Origin: Melioribacteraceae bacterium
GTDB lineage: Bacteria > Bacteroidota > Ignavibacteria > Ignavibacteriales > Melioribacteraceae
Assembly: GCA_027030245.1 (NCBI GenBank)
Contig: JALVFE010000016.1
Coordinates: 62,001-126,000 of the forward strand
Direction of reading: 5' to 3'
Length of the DNA: 64,000 bases
The notes beneath the pieces are model-generated. The model was not told the DNA's origin. It was given only the letters and a program-made list of their open reading frames with translations, and did not search any database. Of the stretch, positions 46,946 through 55,885 are shown in pieces (the first letter of the stretch is position 1; each line of letters begins with the position of its first letter). A program made the position numbers and the translations under genes.

Positions 46946-47572
46946 TTATCCAAAAGTTAAAGATATTGCTATAAAAAACTGGGCGGTGTAATAACTGCCC
47001 AGTATAAACATTTCCGCAAATTTTATTTTACTCCTGAATTTGTTCAATGCCAAAACCGAGTCGGAAAGGATAAATAAAATTGCACCGGATGCTATAAAAA
47101 CACTGCGCGAATTCCCGTGAACCAAATAATTATTTACTGCTATCCAGACCATTACGGAAGCTACGACAATATAAATTAAAACCGGTATTTTATATTTCCC
47201 CACTCCCCTTTTAATTAAGAAATAAATAAAAAACGAAAAAAGCAAAACCGGTATCAAGCTTGGCACGTTCAAGTTGCCTTTGGGTAAAAATGCAGTTATG
47301 TAAAGGAAATGGGTAATCAAAAATGCCGATAATCCGTGAACAAAATATTTTTCTTCGTAAAGCAAAAAAACATCACCGAGCAGTGAGAAAATTAATCCGC
47401 ACAAAATTAACGTAAAATAAACGGGATTACTTCCCTTAAAAAAAATGACCGCGAAGACAATTATCAGTATTGTTGTTAACGGTTTGAAGATGATAAAAAT
47501 TTTAGGAGCTTTATTTTTCGCTAAAATTGTGATAACGGCAGATAGAAATATCGCGAGCGTAAAATAGAACAT
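46946..47572 (-). CDS. YhhN/TMEM86 family membrane protein (lysoplasmalogenase-like)
   Basis: A 208-residue protein with about eight hydrophobic helices. Family landmarks are KPLTTILIIVFA near residue 30, GLIFSLLGDVFLL near 60, and FVHGLSAFLITHFLYI near 80, plus GAILFILSDSVLALNKF. In animals this family hydrolyses lysoplasmalogens; in bacteria the role is mostly unproved. It is the last gene of the partner-switching operon, 2 bp after the PDZ-phosphatase gene, so it may be part of the same stress response at the membrane. Confidence 0.85.
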   Translation of the reverse strand: MFYFTLAIFLSAVITILAKNKAPKIFIIFKPLTTILIIVFAVIFFKGSNPVYFTLILCGLIFSLLGDVFLLYEEKYFVHGLSAFLITHFLYITAFLPKGNLNVPSLIPVLLFSFFIYFLIKRGVGKYKIPVLIYIVVASVMVWIAVNNYLVHGNSRSVFIASGAILFILSDSVLALNKFRSKIKFAEMFILGSYYTAQFFIAISLTFG

Positions 47573-47574
47573 TG

Positions 47575-50190
47575 TTAACCTAATTGCGGAGAAGGATTAA
47601 TAAAACTGTCCGTCTTTGTTTTTAACCGCTCATTAATTTCCTTTGTGATACGCACAACAACCAAAGTAATATCATCGCTCTGTTCCCGTCCGTTTTGAAA
47701 TTTGTTTACACTTTCGGTGATTTTCTGTAAAATTCTTTTTGCATCAAGTGTATTATTTTGAAGAATAACTTTTTCCAACCGTTCGGCTCCGTAAAACTGA
47801 TTCATATTATTCATGGCTTCTTCAATTCCATCTGTTGTAAACACAAATAAATCGCCGGGCGCCAAGTGAATTTCAATTTCTTCAAGAGTGTTTTGGAACA
47901 AATCTCCGCTTTCCAAACCCAACCCCATTCCTTTGGGGACAAAAGATTTTACCGTATTATCTCTTACTAATTTTACCGGTGTGTGCCCTGCCCTTGCAAT
48001 TTTAACTATTTTCTCGCTTGTTTCAAAAAGCGCCAAGGTTGCGGTGATAAACCATTGCTTATCCAAACTTTCGAAAATATTTTTATTTAGTTCGGTTAAA
48101 ATATCTCTCGGGGATTTATCTTCCGTACAATACAATCTAATCATTGTTTGTAATTTAGACATGTAAAACGATGCGGAAAGTCCTTTACCCGAAACATCGG
48201 CAACAACCACAAATATTTTGGTGGGTGAAATTTTAATTAAATCATAATAATCTCCGCCCACGTGCATTGCGGGTTGCATAAATCCGGCAATATCCAAACC
48301 ATGAATAAAAGGAATCTCTTGCGGTAAAAGTTGTTGTTGGATTTTTTTCGCAACAATTAAATCCCTTTCAAGTTTAATTTTTTCAGTTTCGGCTTGGTAA
48401 AGTCGTGCATTTTCTATTGATATCGCCGTTTGATTTGCTGCCGCAACCAGCAATTCCAAATCTTTGCCGGCAAATTGTGCTCCGGAATGTTTTAATCCGA
48501 AAAGCAGCATGCCGTTAACGGTTGATTTGCTTACAAGCGGAATTACTATATAAATTCCTTCGCTCATTAATCTTTCGGCAACAGCGGGAAAAACTTCCGT
48601 AAATTCCGACCTTTCGAAAGCGGGATATTGATTGGAACCGTTTTTTTGTTTTAAGTGCTTTAATAAATTATTTATATCGCAGTCAAAATTTAATTTACCG
48701 TTAACGAATCCGAAGTTCCTTACCAATCTGCAGTTTTGGGAATTCTTATCTTTTAATACAATACCGAATTTTTCAAGTTTTAACGAATCGACAAATGTAT
48801 CCAATACAGAATCGAGTATATTTTCCAATCCTACAATTGTAGAAATATTATTCGAAAACTCAAGTAATACTTTTCTGTAAGCAAATTGTTCGGGGTAAAA
48901 ACGCCTTGTGATAATTTCTTGAAACCGGTCTTTCGTTGATTGAAAAACTATTGAGAAAATAATAAAGATTAGAGCCGCAATTAATCCTTGATATTCCGTT
49001 GCAATTGCCTGACTTATTTTCTGCCCAAGAATATAAATAGTTAAAAAGTAAATTCCGGCAAGCGAAACCGTAGCCGTTCCGTACATTAACGTATTTTTTA
49101 CAACATCGGAAACATCCATTAACGAATACTTGAATATAGAATAACCGAAAGCAATGGGTAACGCAACAATTAAAATTATCGGCATGAAATATTCGGGAGA
49201 ATTGAAAATCGATCCGGCTAAAACCCGTGCGAGTGTATTCACATAAATTATTGATAACAGAGCTATTCCGTAACTAACAAGAATTACAAATACCGGATTT
49301 CTTTTCTTTTCATCTTTAAGTCTTACGTAATGAATGAATAACGAGACGAATCCTATTATAAAACTTAGTCCGAATAAAACATTGTAAAAAATGATTAAAT
49401 ACATATTTAACCGGAACGGAGATTTCGCACCGTAGACATAAAAAATCTTAAACAAAATCATTCCGGCAGTAAGTATTGTGGGAATAACAAACAGAATGGT
49501 TTTGGTAGATTTTCTTTCTGCAAACTTAAACGATTGGGGGAAAACCCAAAAGAAATAAATGTACACAAATGGTAATACAATCGCAGCTATCGAATATATA
49601 ATATCTATAATTACAAGAAGCCATTTGATTTGCCAAACCGGATTTACGGAAGGAGTACCGGAAACAAGCACCCACATTGAGTTTAATATAAGAAGAGCTC
49701 CTATTGAAAAAAACAGTTGCTGTGTTCTACCGTTCGGTTTAGATGAGATAACAATGTAACCAACTATCAGCCAGAAAAGAGAGAGTAAAACAATGCTTAA
49801 GGCACCAAAGTTGATGAGCTTTTTAATCTTAACTTTTGTTTCAATGATTTTACCATTATGCACAATTTTATAAACAGCCGAATCCCCTTGTGCAAGCCGG
49901 TCTATTGCTTTTGACGCGGTGAATAAACTATTAATTTTTTCACCGTTTATTTCCAGCAATTGATCGCCGTCTCTAATTCCCGCTTGCCAGGCAACTCCGT
50001 TTTCTTTTACCAAGTCGAAAACGAAGATAGTGCTGTCGGGTGTAATTTGTTTCGGCACCCACAAGCATTCGTCGTTAGAACGCGGAGTTACTTCAAAAAT
50101 AAAGTAAAGATTGATTAACGAAATAACGGTTAAAAAAATCGTTAGCGGGAATAAAACTTTGTTTCTATATTTAATGAATTTTTCGCTCAT
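47575..50190 (-). CDS. Membrane PDZ-GAF-SpoIIE (PP2C) serine phosphatase
   Basis: An 871-residue sensor phosphatase. One transmembrane helix (~11-32) is followed by an extracytoplasmic PDZ domain (~55-125, GVAWQAGIRDGDQLLEINGEKI). About eight further helices (~130-410), a GAF domain (~445-600) and a SpoIIE-type PP2C domain (~640-855) come next. The PP2C metal motifs are GGDYYDLIKI, VVADVSGKGLSA, ARAGHTPVKL and FVFTTDGIEEAM. SpoIIE/RsbU phosphatases dephosphorylate STAS antagonists to free a sigma factor. The PDZ placement suggests it senses peptides or misfolded envelope proteins (inference). It overlaps the preceding phosphatase gene by 4 bp. Confidence 0.88.
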   Translation of the reverse strand: MSEKFIKYRNKVLFPLTIFLTVISLINLYFIFEVTPRSNDECLWVPKQITPDSTIFVFDLVKENGVAWQAGIRDGDQLLEINGEKINSLFTASKAIDRLAQGDSAVYKIVHNGKIIETKVKIKKLINFGALSIVLLSLFWLIVGYIVISSKPNGRTQQLFFSIGALLILNSMWVLVSGTPSVNPVWQIKWLLVIIDIIYSIAAIVLPFVYIYFFWVFPQSFKFAERKSTKTILFVIPTILTAGMILFKIFYVYGAKSPFRLNMYLIIFYNVLFGLSFIIGFVSLFIHYVRLKDEKKRNPVFVILVSYGIALLSIIYVNTLARVLAGSIFNSPEYFMPIILIVALPIAFGYSIFKYSLMDVSDVVKNTLMYGTATVSLAGIYFLTIYILGQKISQAIATEYQGLIAALIFIIFSIVFQSTKDRFQEIITRRFYPEQFAYRKVLLEFSNNISTIVGLENILDSVLDTFVDSLKLEKFGIVLKDKNSQNCRLVRNFGFVNGKLNFDCDINNLLKHLKQKNGSNQYPAFERSEFTEVFPAVAERLMSEGIYIVIPLVSKSTVNGMLLFGLKHSGAQFAGKDLELLVAAANQTAISIENARLYQAETEKIKLERDLIVAKKIQQQLLPQEIPFIHGLDIAGFMQPAMHVGGDYYDLIKISPTKIFVVVADVSGKGLSASFYMSKLQTMIRLYCTEDKSPRDILTELNKNIFESLDKQWFITATLALFETSEKIVKIARAGHTPVKLVRDNTVKSFVPKGMGLGLESGDLFQNTLEEIEIHLAPGDLFVFTTDGIEEAMNNMNQFYGAERLEKVILQNNTLDAKRILQKITESVNKFQNGREQSDDITLVVVRITKEINERLKTKTDSFINPSPQLG

Positions 50191-51869
50191 TCTTTTATCT
50201 TAAACACGCAACATGTAATATCATCGGATTGCTCGGCGCCCGAAGTATGTTCTGAAACGTCTTTTATTATTTCATCTAAAATTTTTTGCGCCGGATATTT
50301 GCTTTTTTCAAGAACCAATTTCTGCAATCTTTCTTCCGTGTATTCGTTTTTATCTGTATCCATTGCTTCGGTAATGCCGTCCGTGTACATTACTATAACA
50401 TCGTCACGTTTAAGTTGAATCATTTCAAATTCATAATCTATTACGGTTGTCATAACCCCTAAAATCATTCCGCCGGTTTTTAGTTTTATTATATTTCCGT
50501 CTCTTACAAGCAGCGGCGGATTATGTCCGGCATTAACGTATGTGAAAGTCAATTTTTCAGTATCCAGAATTCCCCAAAAGAAAGTTATAAAACTTCCCAT
50601 CGTAGTATTTTCCGACACCAAATCATTTATAAGATTAGACGCTTCAACAAGCGGAATGTTTTGCTTAAGAATTGCTTTCAAAAATGCCTGCAGATTTGCC
50701 ATTAACAATGCCGCTTGTACTCCTTTTCCCGCAACATCCGCAATCGCAACCAACAAACGGTTTTCGTCAAGTTTAATTACATCGTAGTAATCGCCGCCGA
50801 CTTGTTTAGCGGTTTTATTGTATGCGGCAATTTCCACTTTCTCAAATTCAGGCAGTTTTTTCGGCAACAGATTCTTTTGTATTGTTCTAGCCAATTCCAA
50901 ATCTTTTTCAAGCTTTTGTTTTTCCAAAGCTTCCTTGAACAGTCTGCTGTTTTCTATCGAAATGATAGCGAGACTTGCTACGGACGAAATATATTCAAGA
51001 TCGGATTGAGTGAAATCTTTGCCGGTTAATCTTTTGCCCAGAATAATATATCCGCGTACTTCATTTTTGATTGTCATCGGTACCGCAAGAACAAATCCCG
51101 CATCCGATAGTCCGGGTAAATTCTTTCTAAATTCTTCACCATAAATGATATTATTGTGATTAAACAACCCATTTGTATCCAACAAGTTTTTAAGTTTCTC
51201 TTCCGGATAGTTGCTCTCGAGAATTTCTGGTTTATTATTATCCTTAACAATCACCGCAAATTGGGAAATAAGCATTTGTGCAATTACGGAAAACACCAAC
51301 AATTTACCGACTCTTTCCTTTTCAAGTATTCCGCTAAATTCTTTACTCAAATCGAACAAGGAACTTAGCTGATTAATTTTTGCGTCAAGATTCAGATTAA
51401 CTTTTTTTAACTCTTCAAGGGTAAGAGTATTTTCAATTGCGGTACTGCTAATATTAGTTAAAGTTTTAAGGAAATTTTTATCTTCTTCGGAAAAATCTTC
51501 TTTTGTTATTTTTTCGCCCAAAACTATTATCCCCAATTCTTTTTCGGATGTAGCAATTAACTCGTAATGGGCAAAGCCGTATTTTTGCAGAAATTCTTTG
51601 AGTTTTGTGTTAGCAGTTATTTCCGATATGCCGAGTTCGGGGAAATTATTTTTCACTTCGTCGTTTATTCCTTTCGAGTAAGATATTTTTAATTTCCCGT
51701 CTTTTTCAACAAGCGCAACAAATCCCTTTGTTACCTGCAGTTTTGCGAAAACGGTAAGCAATAAATTGTTAAGAATGAAATCGAGCTTTAGACTTGAGTT
51801 TACGGAATTGGAAAAGTCGACCAAAGCCGACAAATCACGCAAAGCCGATTCATTTTTTTGACGGTTCAT
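50187..51869 (-). CDS. Cytoplasmic GAF-GAF-SpoIIE (PP2C) serine phosphatase
   Basis: A 560-residue soluble protein. Two GAF domains (~15-160 and ~175-315, the second ending LAIISIENSRLFKEAL) join through a coiled coil (EKQKLEKDLELARTIQKNLLP) to a SpoIIE PP2C domain (~340-558). Its metal motifs GGDYYDVIKL, VAIADVAGKGVQAA, VNAGHNPPLL and VIVMYTDGITEAM are intact. It likely dephosphorylates the neighbouring STAS protein when a small molecule binds the GAF domains. Its start abuts the RsbW-like kinase stop (0 bp). Confidence 0.9.
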   Translation of the reverse strand: MNRQKNESALRDLSALVDFSNSVNSSLKLDFILNNLLLTVFAKLQVTKGFVALVEKDGKLKISYSKGINDEVKNNFPELGISEITANTKLKEFLQKYGFAHYELIATSEKELGIIVLGEKITKEDFSEEDKNFLKTLTNISSTAIENTLTLEELKKVNLNLDAKINQLSSLFDLSKEFSGILEKERVGKLLVFSVIAQMLISQFAVIVKDNNKPEILESNYPEEKLKNLLDTNGLFNHNNIIYGEEFRKNLPGLSDAGFVLAVPMTIKNEVRGYIILGKRLTGKDFTQSDLEYISSVASLAIISIENSRLFKEALEKQKLEKDLELARTIQKNLLPKKLPEFEKVEIAAYNKTAKQVGGDYYDVIKLDENRLLVAIADVAGKGVQAALLMANLQAFLKAILKQNIPLVEASNLINDLVSENTTMGSFITFFWGILDTEKLTFTYVNAGHNPPLLVRDGNIIKLKTGGMILGVMTTVIDYEFEMIQLKRDDVIVMYTDGITEAMDTDKNEYTEERLQKLVLEKSKYPAQKILDEIIKDVSEHTSGAEQSDDITCCVFKIKE

Positions 51870-52307
51870 TTAGTTCGGTAAATATTTAACTAATGTTACA
51901 CGATTGCGATTACCGGTAAGATGGCTGTATTTAACTTCGTCCATAAGTTTTTTCATCAAGAATATTCCCAAGCCGCCCACTCTTTTTTCTTTATGATACT
52001 CTTCCAAATCCGGGTCTTTGATGTCTTTTATATTGAATTTCTCACCCTTATCGGTTATTGATACGGAGAACTTATTGTTTTTGCACTTTACGTTGATTTC
52101 AATTTCACCTTCGGGCGAAAAATGGTATGCATGTTTAATTACGTTGGTACAAGCTTCATCTACAGCTAAAATAATTTCACCGATGGCTTCTTTCTTTAAT
52201 TTACATTCCATTCCGGTTTTATGTATAAAATCCCTAATCCGCGAAAGGTTATCCGTGGTACTTTTAACTTTAATCTTTCTGTTTATTTCTTTAGTTTTGA
52301 TTTTCAA
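51870..52307 (-). CDS. RsbW-like anti-sigma factor / serine kinase
   Basis: A 145-residue GHKL-fold kinase of the RsbW/SpoIIAB type. The N-box is DEACTNVIKHAY, G1 is ITDKGEKFN and G2 is GGLGIFLMKK. There is no histidine-kinase dimerisation domain, as expected. In partner switching it either holds a sigma factor or phosphorylates the STAS antagonist on Ser. The STAS gene is directly upstream (adjacent, 0 bp) and PP2C phosphatases flank both, which supports this. Whether it binds the ECF sigma encoded at the head of the operon cannot be told from sequence. Confidence 0.92.
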   Translation of the reverse strand: MKIKTKEINRKIKVKSTTDNLSRIRDFIHKTGMECKLKKEAIGEIILAVDEACTNVIKHAYHFSPEGEIEINVKCKNNKFSVSITDKGEKFNIKDIKDPDLEEYHKEKRVGGLGIFLMKKLMDEVKYSHLTGNRNRVTLVKYLPN

Positions 52308-52658
52308 TTATTGCTCATTAAATTTTTTAATTGCTTCATTTTCGTCATTATAAAATTCGTAAAGCATCGGGAATCCTAAAAGATCGAATATATTGTAAAC
52401 TTCTTTTTTAAGATTGGAAAACTTTATATCGCCGCCGTTTTCTCTCATTGTTTCTATGTAAGCCATAAAAACTCCGAGTCCGGCGCTGCTGATATAATTC
52501 AGATCTTTCAGGTTTACGACGACTTTATATTTCCCATCGTCAATCAATTTGTTGAAAGCATCTTCAAGTTCCGGCGCAGTATGCGCGTCCAAATAGCCCT
52601 TTACATCCAAAATACTAACCGAACCATCCGATCTAGTTTGAACGTTAAATTCAGTCAT
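52308..52658 (-). CDS. STAS-domain anti-sigma factor antagonist
   Basis: A 116-residue SpoIIAA/RsbV-type protein: SILDVKGYLDAHTAPELEDAF, then the phosphorylation loop LNYISSAGLGVFM with the conserved Ser at ~58-59. Dephosphorylated STAS proteins bind the kinase and free its target. It overlaps the upstream phosphatase gene by 1 bp and abuts the RsbW-like gene. Confidence 0.93.
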   Translation of the reverse strand: MTEFNVQTRSDGSVSILDVKGYLDAHTAPELEDAFNKLIDDGKYKVVVNLKDLNYISSAGLGVFMAYIETMRENGGDIKFSNLKKEVYNIFDLLGFPMLYEFYNDENEAIKKFNEQ

Positions 52659-54703
52659 TAATTATCTCCGTTCAACTTGTTAATAAAATTCCACTTAAAT
52701 ATAACAAGAGTTATATCGTCGTGTTGCGGATTTTCTTTAGAAAATACCGAAAGTTCTTTAATAATTTTTCTCGATAATGCATCGGGTGAAAGTTCTCCGG
52801 AATTTTTAACAATTGCTTCCAGCCGGTCGTATCCGAATTCTTCGTTTGCAGAATTCATCGCCTCGTTTACTCCGTCGGTAAACAATATAATCAAATCCCC
52901 ATTCCCCAATTGAACTTCCATTTCTTCCAAAGTCCTGGCAAATTCTTTCGACGGACTTATTCCGAGTCCTATTCCCCGCGGGACATAAGATTGAAGTGTA
53001 TCATTGCGTTTATGAAGCACAGGTGCATGACCAGCGCGGGAAAATTTGAACTTTCCGTTTTTCGTATTTAATATTCCGAAAGTTGCCGTAACGAACGATT
53101 TTCTGTCCAAACTCTTCTTCAAAATTTCATTCGCACGAATGAGAATTTCTGCGGGGGAAAAATCAATTTTTGAAAGGGATTCGAAAATCCCTTTTACTTC
53201 GGACATAATGAAAGCCGACTGAATACCTTTACCGGAAACATCGGCAATTACAAAGCCGTAATGTTCATCGTCGAACCGGAAGAAATCGTAATAATCGCCG
53301 CCGACCTCAAACGCAGGAATAAAAGAAGCTGAAACGTCAACGTTAGGAATATCGGGTTTCCCTTTCGGTAATATTTTTTGCTGAATTTCCCTTGCCAAAT
53401 CAAGCTCTTTCTCCATTCTTTCCTTTTCAATCGATTGCTCGATTAATTTTGAATTCTCAATAGCAACAGCGGCAAAATCGGCAAAAGCCGAAATAGCCTT
53501 TTTATCTTCTTCATCGAAGCCCATACTCATTTGTTTTGCCGTAAAAAGATATCCGATATTCTTTCCGTGAATATTCAGCGGAGCAATTATGACCGATTGA
53601 AATTTAGATGAACGGAAAAAATCATATTTTTCCAAAGTATTTAATTCGGTAAGTTCTTTGGGATTAACTAAATCCGAGTTGAATAAGTTTACCGAAATCT
53701 TTTCGGCGTCTTCCTTGTTTATGTTATTAACCGAATTTATTTCAAGCGTATCGTTAAAATTTGTAACCAACCAAGCCGATTGGCAATTACATACGTCCTT
53801 TGTCATTTCTGTAATTGTATTGACCAATTCATCAAAATCCAAAACACGGGTGATTAATTTATTCAAGTCCATCAAGGATGTAAGTTCTTGAGTTTTCCTG
53901 TCAATAGCTTCTGCGGTGGGAAGATGAAAAAGTGCGGTAAAAAAAACAACTATAAAATAAACGGTAGCATACAAAAATATTAAGCCGATAAATTTATTTA
54001 ATGCCGGGGAAAGCAGAGCTACAAAATTTGCGTCTTGAGTTTGGGTAAAGCCGAACGTTGAACCGAATACTACCATAAAAATAATTGAAAGCAGAAGAAG
54101 AATTCTTTTTTGTTTTTTTGCGATAAATGCTATCCACGCAACCCTAATTGAATTAATTACCGCAACGACAATGGCAATACCGGTAAGCGAATCCGTAATA
54201 AAATCATATTCCCAATCCGAATCCCAAATTCCGGCAACAACCGATGCCAAAATAAAAAGTATCATCATCGTATTAAAATAAAGTGTCGGAACACTTTTTT
54301 GATGAGCAAAAAACAATTCCCTCAAAACATCGAATATATATGCGGTGGAAACCAAAATAATAAACACAAATAAATAAACTAACAATGAAGTTATTACATT
54401 GTCATTCGTGCTTAAATATTCCGGCGAAACGGTTAGTAAAAAATAAACCAATGCTCCCAGGATCATCGAGTTAACTAAAATTCCAACCGGTGATGACGCT
54501 TGATTGTGAACAAATTCGTATAGAAACAGCGCCCAAGAGAAAAATGCCGTTAATACAAGTATTTCGGTAATTAAAGAAACAAGAATATTGCCGGGTTCGG
54601 GGAAAAATATTTTTGCAATTAAAAACAATACGCTAAATACAATTGCTGTTTGCAATCTTCGCTTACTATCCGACTCAAAAAATTTACGTAAGAAAAAATC
54701 CAT
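52658..54703 (-). CDS. Membrane GAF-SpoIIE (PP2C) serine phosphatase
   Basis: A 681-residue protein with about seven to eight N-terminal transmembrane helices (~20-265), a GAF-like domain (~280-430), a coiled-coil linker (EKERMEKELDLAREIQQKILP) and a SpoIIE PP2C domain (~455-670). The PP2C motifs GGDYYDFFRF, VIADVSGKGIQSA, SRAGHAPVLH and IILFTDGVNEAM are present. The membrane part has no PDZ, unlike the third phosphatase of the operon, so it should read a different cue. It begins 2 bp after the ECF sigma gene. Confidence 0.9.
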   Translation of the reverse strand: MDFFLRKFFESDSKRRLQTAIVFSVLFLIAKIFFPEPGNILVSLITEILVLTAFFSWALFLYEFVHNQASSPVGILVNSMILGALVYFLLTVSPEYLSTNDNVITSLLVYLFVFIILVSTAYIFDVLRELFFAHQKSVPTLYFNTMMILFILASVVAGIWDSDWEYDFITDSLTGIAIVVAVINSIRVAWIAFIAKKQKRILLLLSIIFMVVFGSTFGFTQTQDANFVALLSPALNKFIGLIFLYATVYFIVVFFTALFHLPTAEAIDRKTQELTSLMDLNKLITRVLDFDELVNTITEMTKDVCNCQSAWLVTNFNDTLEINSVNNINKEDAEKISVNLFNSDLVNPKELTELNTLEKYDFFRSSKFQSVIIAPLNIHGKNIGYLFTAKQMSMGFDEEDKKAISAFADFAAVAIENSKLIEQSIEKERMEKELDLAREIQQKILPKGKPDIPNVDVSASFIPAFEVGGDYYDFFRFDDEHYGFVIADVSGKGIQSAFIMSEVKGIFESLSKIDFSPAEILIRANEILKKSLDRKSFVTATFGILNTKNGKFKFSRAGHAPVLHKRNDTLQSYVPRGIGLGISPSKEFARTLEEMEVQLGNGDLIILFTDGVNEAMNSANEEFGYDRLEAIVKNSGELSPDALSRKIIKELSVFSKENPQHDDITLVIFKWNFINKLNGDN

Positions 54704-54705
54704 AC

Positions 54706-55293
54706 TTATAACAAGTCTTTTTGAAAGGGTTCTAAAATAATCCTCAATGCTTGTCTTGCGCGGAAAATTCTCGATTTGATTGTTCCGACTTCACAATTGA
54801 ATTTATCGGCAATTTCTTTATAACTTAGTCCGTCAATATCCCGCAAGACCAAAGGTTCTCTTAATTTATCCGGAAGCTTAGCAATTGCTTTTCTAACAAG
54901 AGAGGAAACATCCGGGTTATCCGAACGTGATTTTGCCCGAAGATGATACTCGTGCTCGTCGATCGGTGCAAATATGCTGCGTACTTTTTTCTTACGCAAA
55001 TAGTCTTTACATTTATTCACCGTTACTCTGTAAAGCCACGTTGTAAATTTGGATTCGTATCTGAAATCGCCGAGCATTTTAAAAGCACTGATGAAAACGT
55101 CTTGAGAAATATCATCGATGTAATCCACATCGCCGAGCGTTAAGTAAATCAAGTTTCTAACCTTCTCTTTATGTTTAAGAACCAATTTTGTAAATGCCGA
55201 ATCGTCGCCGTTTTGAAATTTCCGAATCAGTTCAAAATCTTCATCTTTCTCAGGTTGTACCTTATCGGCATTATTCTTATTGATTTCGCTCAA
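54706..55293 (-). CDS. ECF-type RNA polymerase sigma factor
   Basis: A 195-residue group 4 sigma factor with region 2 (~25-95, DSAFTKLVLKHKEKVRNLIY, DDISQDVFISAFKML, KFTTWLYRVTVNKCKDYLRK) and region 4 (~130-185, LPDKLREPLVLRDIDGLSYKEIADKF, GTIKSRIFRARQALR); no region 3. The start is a TTG at 55293, the only candidate before region 2. No zinc-finger or transmembrane anti-sigma is adjacent. Instead the operon continues with a PP2C phosphatase, a STAS protein and an RsbW-like kinase. Promoter motifs of ECF type precede it and the divergent STAS gene. Confidence 0.93.
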   Translation of the reverse strand: MSEINKNNADKVQPEKDEDFELIRKFQNGDDSAFTKLVLKHKEKVRNLIYLTLGDVDYIDDISQDVFISAFKMLGDFRYESKFTTWLYRVTVNKCKDYLRKKKVRSIFAPIDEHEYHLRAKSRSDNPDVSSLVRKAIAKLPDKLREPLVLRDIDGLSYKEIADKFNCEVGTIKSRIFRARQALRIILEPFQKDLL

Positions 55294-55298
55294 TTTTA

Positions 55299-55323
55299 GA
55301 CGTAATCCCGTGCTTTTGGTTTT
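55299..55323 (-). promoter_or_regulatory. Candidate ECF-type promoter reading toward the sigma gene
   Basis: Minus-strand AAAAC (55323-55319), 16-nt spacer, CGTC (55302-55299). It matches the AAC-N16-CGT layout of ECF promoters, but the -10 ends only 5 nt before the TTG start, which would give a nearly leaderless mRNA. Weak on its own. Confidence 0.35.
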
Positions 55324-55365
55324 AAAATTACCGGAACTATTTACTTAAATCGTACTAAATAAGTT

Positions 55366-55390
55366 TGAACTTTTATAATGTACGTGCGTC
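55366..55390 (+). promoter_or_regulatory. Candidate ECF-type promoter for the divergent STAS gene
   Basis: TGAAC (55366-55370), exactly 16 nt, CGTC (55387-55390), in the style of sigmaW/sigmaE-like promoters. It leaves a ~135-nt leader before the STAS ATG at 55535. If real, the ECF sigma would drive production of an antagonist that helps free it. Confidence 0.45.
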
Positions 55391-55534
55391 AAATAGTAAA
55401 AATTTCTTTCATTTTTCGTAAAGAATACCTAACTTAAATAAACGTAAATTTAGCATAATTTATGAAATCCTCATAGTAAATTAAGCAATTCCGAGAAATG
55501 ATAAACAATTAACATAAAAAATTTAGAGGTTGTT

Positions 55535-55885
55535 ATGAAAATTAAAACTCACGAACATTACAACGCGGTGGTAATCGAATTAAGAGGAAACGTGATGGGA
55601 GGTCCCGACGCGGAAGAGTTCAGCAAACTTCTACATAAACTTTTGGACGAAGGCAAAAAAAATGTAGTCGTGGATTTAGCTCATGTTAAATTTATGAACA
55701 GCTCGGGTTTGGGAATGTTGATTAGCGGTTACACAACAATGAAAAACGGCGGTGGTTCCTTGGTTTTGGCTAATGCCACCGAAAAAATTAACAGCTTGCT
55801 TGTAATAACAAAATTAATTACGATTTTCGATAATTTCGATTCGGTGGAAGAAGCGGTTCAGAGTTTCGCAAAAGAAAAAGAATAA
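55535..55885 (+). CDS. STAS-domain anti-sigma factor antagonist, second copy
   Basis: A 116-residue STAS protein divergent from the sigma operon, with GAGG 7-10 nt before its ATG. It opens MKIKTHEHYNAVVIELRGNVMGG and carries the phosphorylation loop VKFMNSSGLGMLI with the conserved Ser, followed by LANATEKINSLLVITKL. It resembles SpoIIAA/RsbV-type antagonists and is clearly distinct from the copy at 52308-52658. It could be a second substrate for the same kinase and phosphatases. Confidence 0.93.
   Translation: MKIKTHEHYNAVVIELRGNVMGGPDAEEFSKLLHKLLDEGKKNVVVDLAHVKFMNSSGLGMLISGYTTMKNGGGSLVLANATEKINSLLVITKLITIFDNFDSVEEAVQSFAKEKE

Follow-up and report, generated by a model that had tools for sequence, protein, structure and literature searches.

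The window analysed here, a 64,000-nt stretch of contig JALVFE010000016.1 from a Melioribacteraceae bacterium of the order Ignavibacteriales (genome G000; 3.8 Mb, 98% complete), carries an operon in which the gene for an extracytoplasmic function (ECF) sigma factor is followed by a partner-switching module, made up of three SpoIIE phosphatases (PPA, PPB and PPC), a STAS antagonist (STAS1) and an RsbW-like kinase, and by a gene for a YhhN family protein. A second STAS gene (STAS2) is divergent and adjoins purA (Table 1). An earlier reading made from the letters alone (hereafter the sequence-only reading) had described this as a tight operon and proposed that the kinase may be the anti-sigma factor of the ECF sigma. 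Its inventory was recovered in full, with the domains identified by Pfam. The intergenic gaps are 2 bp for sigma-PPA, -1 bp for PPA-STAS1, 0 bp for both STAS1-kinase and kinase-PPB, -4 bp for PPB-PPC and 2 bp for PPC-YhhN.

The sigma factor has the Pfam domains Sigma70_r2 and Sigma70_r4_2 and lacks region 3, which identifies it as an ECF sigma; its best solved relatives in a PDB comparison include AlgU, RpoE and SigW. SpoIIE domains are present in PPA (with a GAF domain below cut-off), PPB (with GAF_3) and PPC (with PDZ and GAF_3), and the other Pfam domains of the operon region are STAS (twice), HATPase_c_2 and YhhN. The best NCBIfam matches are to RpoE/ECF, ant_ant_sig and RsbW/SpoIIAB models, with cut-offs passed only by the superfamily models sigma70-ECF and ant_ant_sig. 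By its HATPase_c_2 domain with N and G boxes the kinase belongs to the RsbW/SpoIIAB family, at a score below the NCBIfam RsbW cut-off. A structure database search shows its resemblance to RsbW and SpoIIAB, and the N box is, by eye, intact, with E51 and N55 invariant in 18 of 18 aligned rows. As judged by eye, the phosphatase motifs GGDYYD, ADV(S/A)GKG, TDG and DDIT are intact, as in SpoIIE/RsbU proteins, and STAS1 and STAS2 both retain the phosphorylatable serine of STAS antagonists, which we take to correspond to S58 of SpoIIAA. The membrane parts of PPA and PPC were called from hydrophobic stretches. Open reading frames and Pfam reveal no anti-sigma gene within the operon, and no class I anti-sigma factor, i.e., one with an anti-sigma domain (ASD), stands beside the sigma gene in the window. 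None of the 8 operon-region proteins scanned with Pfam, the only part of the genome examined for it, is a PhyR-type response regulator.

Table 1. Features of the operon region, in window coordinates.
Feature	Position	Strand	Remarks
ECF sigma factor	54706..55293	-	195 aa, TTG start; Pfam, NCBIfam, PDB relatives
Predicted autoregulatory ECF promoter, AAC-N16-CGTCTAAAA	55294..55321	-	Touches the sigma start codon
X site of relatives (membrane anti-sigma)	54704..54705	.	Empty in the window
PPA	52658..54703	-	Membrane protein, weak GAF and SpoIIE phosphatase domain
STAS1, STAS antagonist	52308..52658	-	Pfam, NCBIfam
KIN, RsbW/SpoIIAB-like kinase	51870..52307	-	TTG start; Pfam, NCBIfam, structure matches
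PPB	50187..51869	-	GAF and SpoIIE phosphatase; Pfam
PPC	47575..50190	-	PDZ, membrane part, GAF, SpoIIE phosphatase; Pfam
YhhN family protein, accessory	46946..47572	-	Pfam
STAS2, divergent STAS protein adjoining purA	55535..55885	+	Pfam, NCBIfam

We compared 117 loci, 97 from the order (window included) and 20 of those listed from outside it. Of 58 relatives in the order, 57 (all but G050) have a sigma ortholog that scores above 200 bits and is well set apart from the next paralog, and among the matches listed from 391 genomes of the class, those outside the order reach at most 176 bits. The gene order SIG-[X]-PPA-STAS1-KIN-PPB-PPC, with divergent STAS2-purA, recurs throughout the order, some loci being cut by contig ends or lacking a member, and the arrangement is therefore not due to chance; conservation of gene order in related genomes, a check suggested by the sequence-only reading, is thus observed. 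STAS2 is found in 85 of the 97 order loci and keeps purA as its neighbour even where sigma and X (L200, L201) or the module (L137) are missing. YhhN, listed as an operon member in that reading, is present in the window but is accessory, scoring above 50 bits in 7 of the 97 order loci (some of which stop short of its position). In members of two genera of the clade that has the ASD, PPA is absent and STAS1-kinase-PPB is retained (L052, L136, L226, L232, L238 and L246).

The site directly behind sigma is occupied in relatives by a protein that we call X, which from its sequence has one membrane helix and a periplasmic part. Across the 117 loci, X has an N-terminal domain of approximately 80 residues in 57, lacks that domain and starts near the membrane helix in 50, and is missing from 10, including the window; the corresponding numbers for the 140 sigma-bearing loci of the order are 65, 64 and 11. 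A profile of the N-terminal domain matched RsiW among solved structures (E 0.003, the sole one below 0.01), followed by an anti-CRISPR protein (0.06) and RseA (0.097). At E 0.1, 14 of 17 rows matched zf-HC2 and 12 of 17 RseA_N, at scores seen below the curated cut-offs, and zinc ligands are absent by eye. A predicted model (mean predicted local distance difference test score 80, predicted template modelling score 0.43) has helices H1-H2-H3, a linker, H4 and the membrane helix. In a fold search with this domain the top 19 entries were all anti-sigma factors (RsiW, RseA, MucA, RslA, RskA, DdvA and ChrR), none with E below 0.001. While each single sequence match is weak, the N-terminal domain of X is an ASD of the RseA/RsiW type, making X a class I anti-sigma factor. 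As a separate observation, the 50 truncated X proteins (e.g., L059:9853-11118) retain the membrane helix and the conserved stretch after it, and may have a second function.

Sigma stands beside an ASD-bearing X in all 37 loci of family f3 of the order and in all 20 class-level loci from outside it, whereas the ASD is absent from all 60 loci of groups f1 and f2, the window's clade. On the sigma tree this is a single change, with an SH-like approximate likelihood ratio support of 99 for the ASD-less clade, and the absence of X amounts to three further changes (quick tree search). The lack of a zinc-finger or membrane anti-sigma beside sigma, already remarked upon by the sequence-only reading, is thus derived and, as is well supported, goes back to one loss. 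As a consequence, the RsbW-like kinase is the sole anti-sigma-like protein in the operon. The loss is accompanied by closing of a gap. Where the ASD is present, the genes for sigma and X overlap (median gap -4 bp), and the distance from X to the module has a median of 209 bp (n = 47). ASD-less loci have the module at a median distance of 22.5 bp if X is kept (n = 62) and 8 bp if it is not (n = 11). A few ASD-less loci have longer gaps (151, 329 and 487 bp, the last from a split PPA). The description as a tight operon thus fits the ASD-less clade but not the ASD clade. It is well supported that the ECF sigma with its ASD anti-sigma and the partner-switch module are two old, independent systems that were fused within the order.

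The interval between STAS2 and sigma contains GAAC-N16-CGTC in 90 of 119 loci, compared with a maximum of 28 for any such word pair in shuffles. Close to the start of sigma, 112 of the 119 loci have the shorter form AAC-N15..17-CGT (ASD, 43/46; truncated X, 59/62; no X, 10/11; shuffled mean approximately 1 in all, with base pairs permuted in blocks). The conserved motif points toward sigma and begins a median of 30 to 31 nt ahead of the start codon, suggesting an autoregulatory sigma promoter that is kept across all ASD states. The window has one match, AAC-N16-CGTCTAAAA, without mismatch; since 0.9 matches are expected by chance with one mismatch allowed, the weight of this call rests on conservation. 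The strict GGAAC form is not in the window. Genome-wide, the strict form was matched in 30 of 39 genomes, and 26 of its 40 sites are sigma's own promoter; the other 14 are fewer than the 57 of a reversed control, showing no enrichment that would indicate a wider regulon. In most loci the -10 motif abuts or almost abuts the start codon, which predicts a leaderless or near-leaderless sigma messenger, with TTG as the start in the window. A positively autoregulated sigma without an anti-sigma would lock on, so that some inhibitor is to be expected. Of 44 ASD-clade loci, one has a sigma promoter motif (GAAC-N15..17-CGT) between X and PPA. The same gap has a word pair resembling TTCCGT-N-CTTTA in 15 of 44 loci (shuffle maximum 12), possibly the module's own promoter or a terminator.

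Sigma and module can come apart in the ASD clade. Counting a locus as separated when no PPA or STAS1 was found within the 2.5 kb read or when the gap exceeded 1.5 kb, separation occurs in 6 of 58 ASD loci of the order versus 0 of 73 resolved ASD-less loci (p 0.006; neither this nor the next two p values is corrected for kinship). Here, L243, with a split PPA, was set adjacent by hand; the count is otherwise 7 of 58. Because L210 and L252, both from the ASD clade, had been fetched for their odd appearance, we state apart the count for the first 97 loci, which were fetched independently of this question: 4 of 34 versus 0 of 58, with 5 unresolved (p 0.017). In genomes at least 95% complete, one part occurs without the other in 4 of 37 from f3 (G050, G290, G337 and G364) versus 0 of 48 from f1 and f2 (p 0.03); for G364, the sigma contig stops 0.3 kb past X, so an assembly gap is possible. 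At L137, sigma and X stand without the module, and the genome lacks a kinase ortholog altogether. In L144, L210 and L252 the module does not follow sigma-X within 3.6 to 8.4 kb, and in L133 and L140 inserts of 2.5 and 6.3 kb lie between them. Neither sigma nor module is present in G432, and neither sigma nor kinase in G456 (80% complete). We left uncounted G451 and G452 (81% and 77% complete; sigma present, no kinase ortholog in the assembly), whose sigma contigs stop inside PPA, and G463 (85% complete; no sigma), whose kinase contig starts inside PPA. The reading of loci also excluded the f1 genomes with sigma and kinase on different contigs (G446, G448, G458 and G462).

The most economical reading of the ASD loss is that the kinase is the inhibitor of sigma in the window's clade. 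It is a candidate only, facing real contrary evidence, and we put its probability at roughly 0.4. Starting from the observed gene content and order, the ancestral ASD anti-sigma, its single loss, the closing of the gap and the conserved promoter sequence, we infer a scheme to which promoter use, kinase-sigma binding, a phosphorylation cycle and its signals would have to be added. In this scheme, an autoregulated ECF sigma with the membrane anti-sigma X and a separate phosphatase-STAS-kinase switch have come together; in the window's clade, the ASD was lost and the switch was drawn into the sigma operon. Further points in its favour are the closer adjacency of sigma and module in ASD-less loci, the inhibitor expected for a positively autoregulated sigma, the genomes with a single region-3 sigma, and the finding that each of the window genome's three other ASD proteins follows a different ECF sigma. 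With the STAS proteins phosphorylated, the kinase would hold sigma. Dephosphorylation of STAS1 (or STAS2) by one of the three sensor phosphatases would let the STAS protein capture the kinase and release sigma, and free sigma would transcribe the operon that encodes it, so that the levels of sigma, kinase and antagonist rise jointly, much as in the sigB operon. The broader proposal, that an RsbW-family kinase replaced the membrane ASD anti-sigma of an ECF sigma in a non-orthologous swap of a regulatory layer, with living intermediates (ASD present; ASD lost and X kept; X lost), is slightly more tentative still.

Parts of this scheme have precedents. The SigB/Rsb system of Bacillus likewise combines an RsbW-like kinase, a STAS antagonist and SpoIIE/RsbU-type phosphatases. 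The Bacillus sigB operon has a promoter read by its own sigma, as is predicted for the window operon, so that sigma, kinase and antagonist rise coordinately. Unlike SigB and SigF, the window sigma is an ECF without region 3, there are three phosphatases, and kinase-sigma binding is only proposed. RpoE-RseA and SigW-RsiW resemble the situation in the relatives, where an RpoE-like sigma gene is overlapped by that of a membrane ASD anti-sigma (median -4 bp), but the ASD is absent from the window and its clade. In the Bordetella btr locus, an ECF sigma (BtrS) also lies next to a phosphatase, STAS protein and kinase (BtrUVW); there, however, the anti-sigma is the separate, secreted BtrA, and the partner switch acts on secretion, according to the portion of PMC7498569 cited here. 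EcfG-NepR-PhyR offers an ECF sigma under partner switching (PMC8103513, as far as the cited part goes), which in the window is only proposed, but PhyR is a sigma-mimicking response regulator and the window operon has no such gene. Casas-Pastor et al., in the cited part of PMC7406223, report a nearby ASD anti-sigma for only 6% of Bacteroidetes ECF sigmas compared with 32% over all phyla, and suggest broken synteny or dominance of other modes (e.g., other anti-sigma classes) in Bacteroidetes as the explanation; RsbW served there as a non-interacting control. Our literature search, covering titles and the openings of abstracts, found no description of an arrangement such as this one, which may yet be mentioned in the ECF re-classification paper (PMC7826278). 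The window's clade, from a phylum neighbouring Bacteroidetes, shows in successive stages the loss of the ASD of an ECF sigma next to a partner switch, and this question is therefore directly testable with orthologous pairs.

Several observations weigh against the kinase as inhibitor of sigma. Trees of seven genes from 77 genomes (23 with the ASD), with the ASD split constrained, place on the ASD-loss branch 2.6% of the tree length for sigma, 1.3% for STAS1, 0.8% for STAS2, 0.7% each for PPA and PPB, 0.5% for purA and 0.3% for the kinase. Sigma changed sharply at the loss and the kinase, with the shortest branch of the seven, did not; nor does the kinase have any group-specific fixed change. 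With purA, PPA, PPB and STAS2 removed, the partial distance correlations in the ASD-less clade are -0.23 for sigma-kinase and 0.04 for sigma-STAS1, against 0.45 for the control pair kinase-STAS1; in the ASD clade, the values are 0.36, 0.37 and 0.62. Raw distances of sigma correlate less with the kinase (0.70) than with PPA (0.84) or PPB (0.88). Hence sigma and kinase give no indication of having coevolved specially in the ASD-less clade, where a takeover needs it. From the literature, RsbW-type proteins have never been described as ECF sigma binders (PMC7406223, cited part), and BtrS has its separate anti-sigma despite btrUVW in the same locus (PMC7498569, likewise). Separately, a two-hybrid assay of RbaW with sigmas, two ECFs included, was negative, and its authors are cautious about the assay (PMC3999984, in the part cited).

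A sigma with region 3 might also be the kinase's target. The window genome has two (Sigma70_r3 at G000:C16:18944-19165 and G000:C38:58407-58634, in open frames of 289 and 294 aa), neither being the operon sigma; one is presumably the housekeeping sigma, and the other could be a candidate alternative target. Not every genome can offer a SigB-type target, however, since 16 of 56 have only one region-3 sigma and one incomplete genome has none. Residue covariation between sigma and kinase (mutual information with average product correction) was uninformative, the control kinase-STAS1 being not clearly above near-relative mispairing. Two candidate signals within sigma were rejected: ASD-contact residues (Table 2 of PMC7406223) showed no enrichment for relaxation (p 0.57 and 0.32), and an apparent gain in conservation that the linker between sigma2 and sigma4 shows in the ASD-less clade vanished after variability matching (p 0.64 and 0.98). 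The contacts were mapped via a sigma-PDB alignment, with a chain offset of 3 inferred from the RpoE N-terminus.

The module also exists without sigma, another point against inhibition of sigma by the kinase. L200 and L201, from f3, have STAS2 and the whole module and lack sigma-X. A kinase search of the genome contigs gave at least 80 loci; among the matches listed, 37 have no sigma on the locus, and in 17 of these the upstream sequence covers 2 kb or more. The order itself accounts for four of the 17, of which L298 and L314 resemble L201 and L200, L301 resembles L140, with sigma just past the flank, and L307 resembles L205. The other 13, outside the order by title, have PPA-STAS1-kinase-PPB, with PPB sometimes split or doubled, and no sigma within approximately 4.5 kb upstream, among the matches listed; sigma could be elsewhere in these genomes. 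Their record titles read Calditrichota/Calditrichia, KSB1, Caldisericaceae, Chlorobi, Bacteroidetes or Bacteroidota, Ignavibacteriae, or "bacterium", placing the module without a nearby sigma in other phyla. Examples of the free-standing module are L299, L308, L309, L316, L323 and L332. Of the proposal in the sequence-only reading, what stands is the absence of a zinc-finger or membrane anti-sigma beside sigma, which leaves the operon with no anti-sigma-like protein other than the kinase. Sigma binding is only a proposal, against which speak the partial correlation of -0.23 and the modules without sigma elsewhere, and that reading is, overall, partly supported.

These 13 loci, together with L200 and L201 and the near-constancy of the kinase at the ASD loss, suit an alternative in which sigma acts upstream and drives the partner-switch operon, while the kinase and STAS proteins encoded there would serve an older target, not a sigma, that dates from the free-standing module. 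That strict promoter sites are mainly sigma's own (26/40) is likewise compatible with it. However, this arrangement would leave an autoregulated sigma uninhibited in the ASD-less clade, and it gives no account of why the ASD became dispensable exactly where the module joined the operon; we consider it somewhat less probable than inhibition of sigma by the kinase.

Sigma in the ASD-less clade might instead have another holder (a different ASD protein in trans, the truncated X, or a STAS protein that acts on it directly) or be controlled only through its transcription, but this is unlikely. The window genome does contain three further ASD proteins found with the same profile, truncated X is retained in 50 of 60 ASD-less loci, and no gene but sigma has a longer ASD-loss branch than STAS1 (1.3%). 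However, each of the three ASD proteins directly follows another ECF sigma and none is near the operon sigma, and PMC7406223 (in the part cited) reports mostly orthogonal anti-sigmas for one ECF group. At E 1, X has no match in any of the 10 X-less genomes, that of the window included; the positive controls for this search were the genome from which the query came and a single genome of f3, not a diverged f1 X, and G021 is only 68% complete. Lastly, that the genes are ordinary operon neighbours without any regulatory link is very improbable, for although the distance trees for the window's clade lack a positive signal between sigma and kinase and residue covariation is uninformative, the arrangement is conserved across the order at translational-coupling distances, with 0 of 73 resolved ASD-less loci separated.

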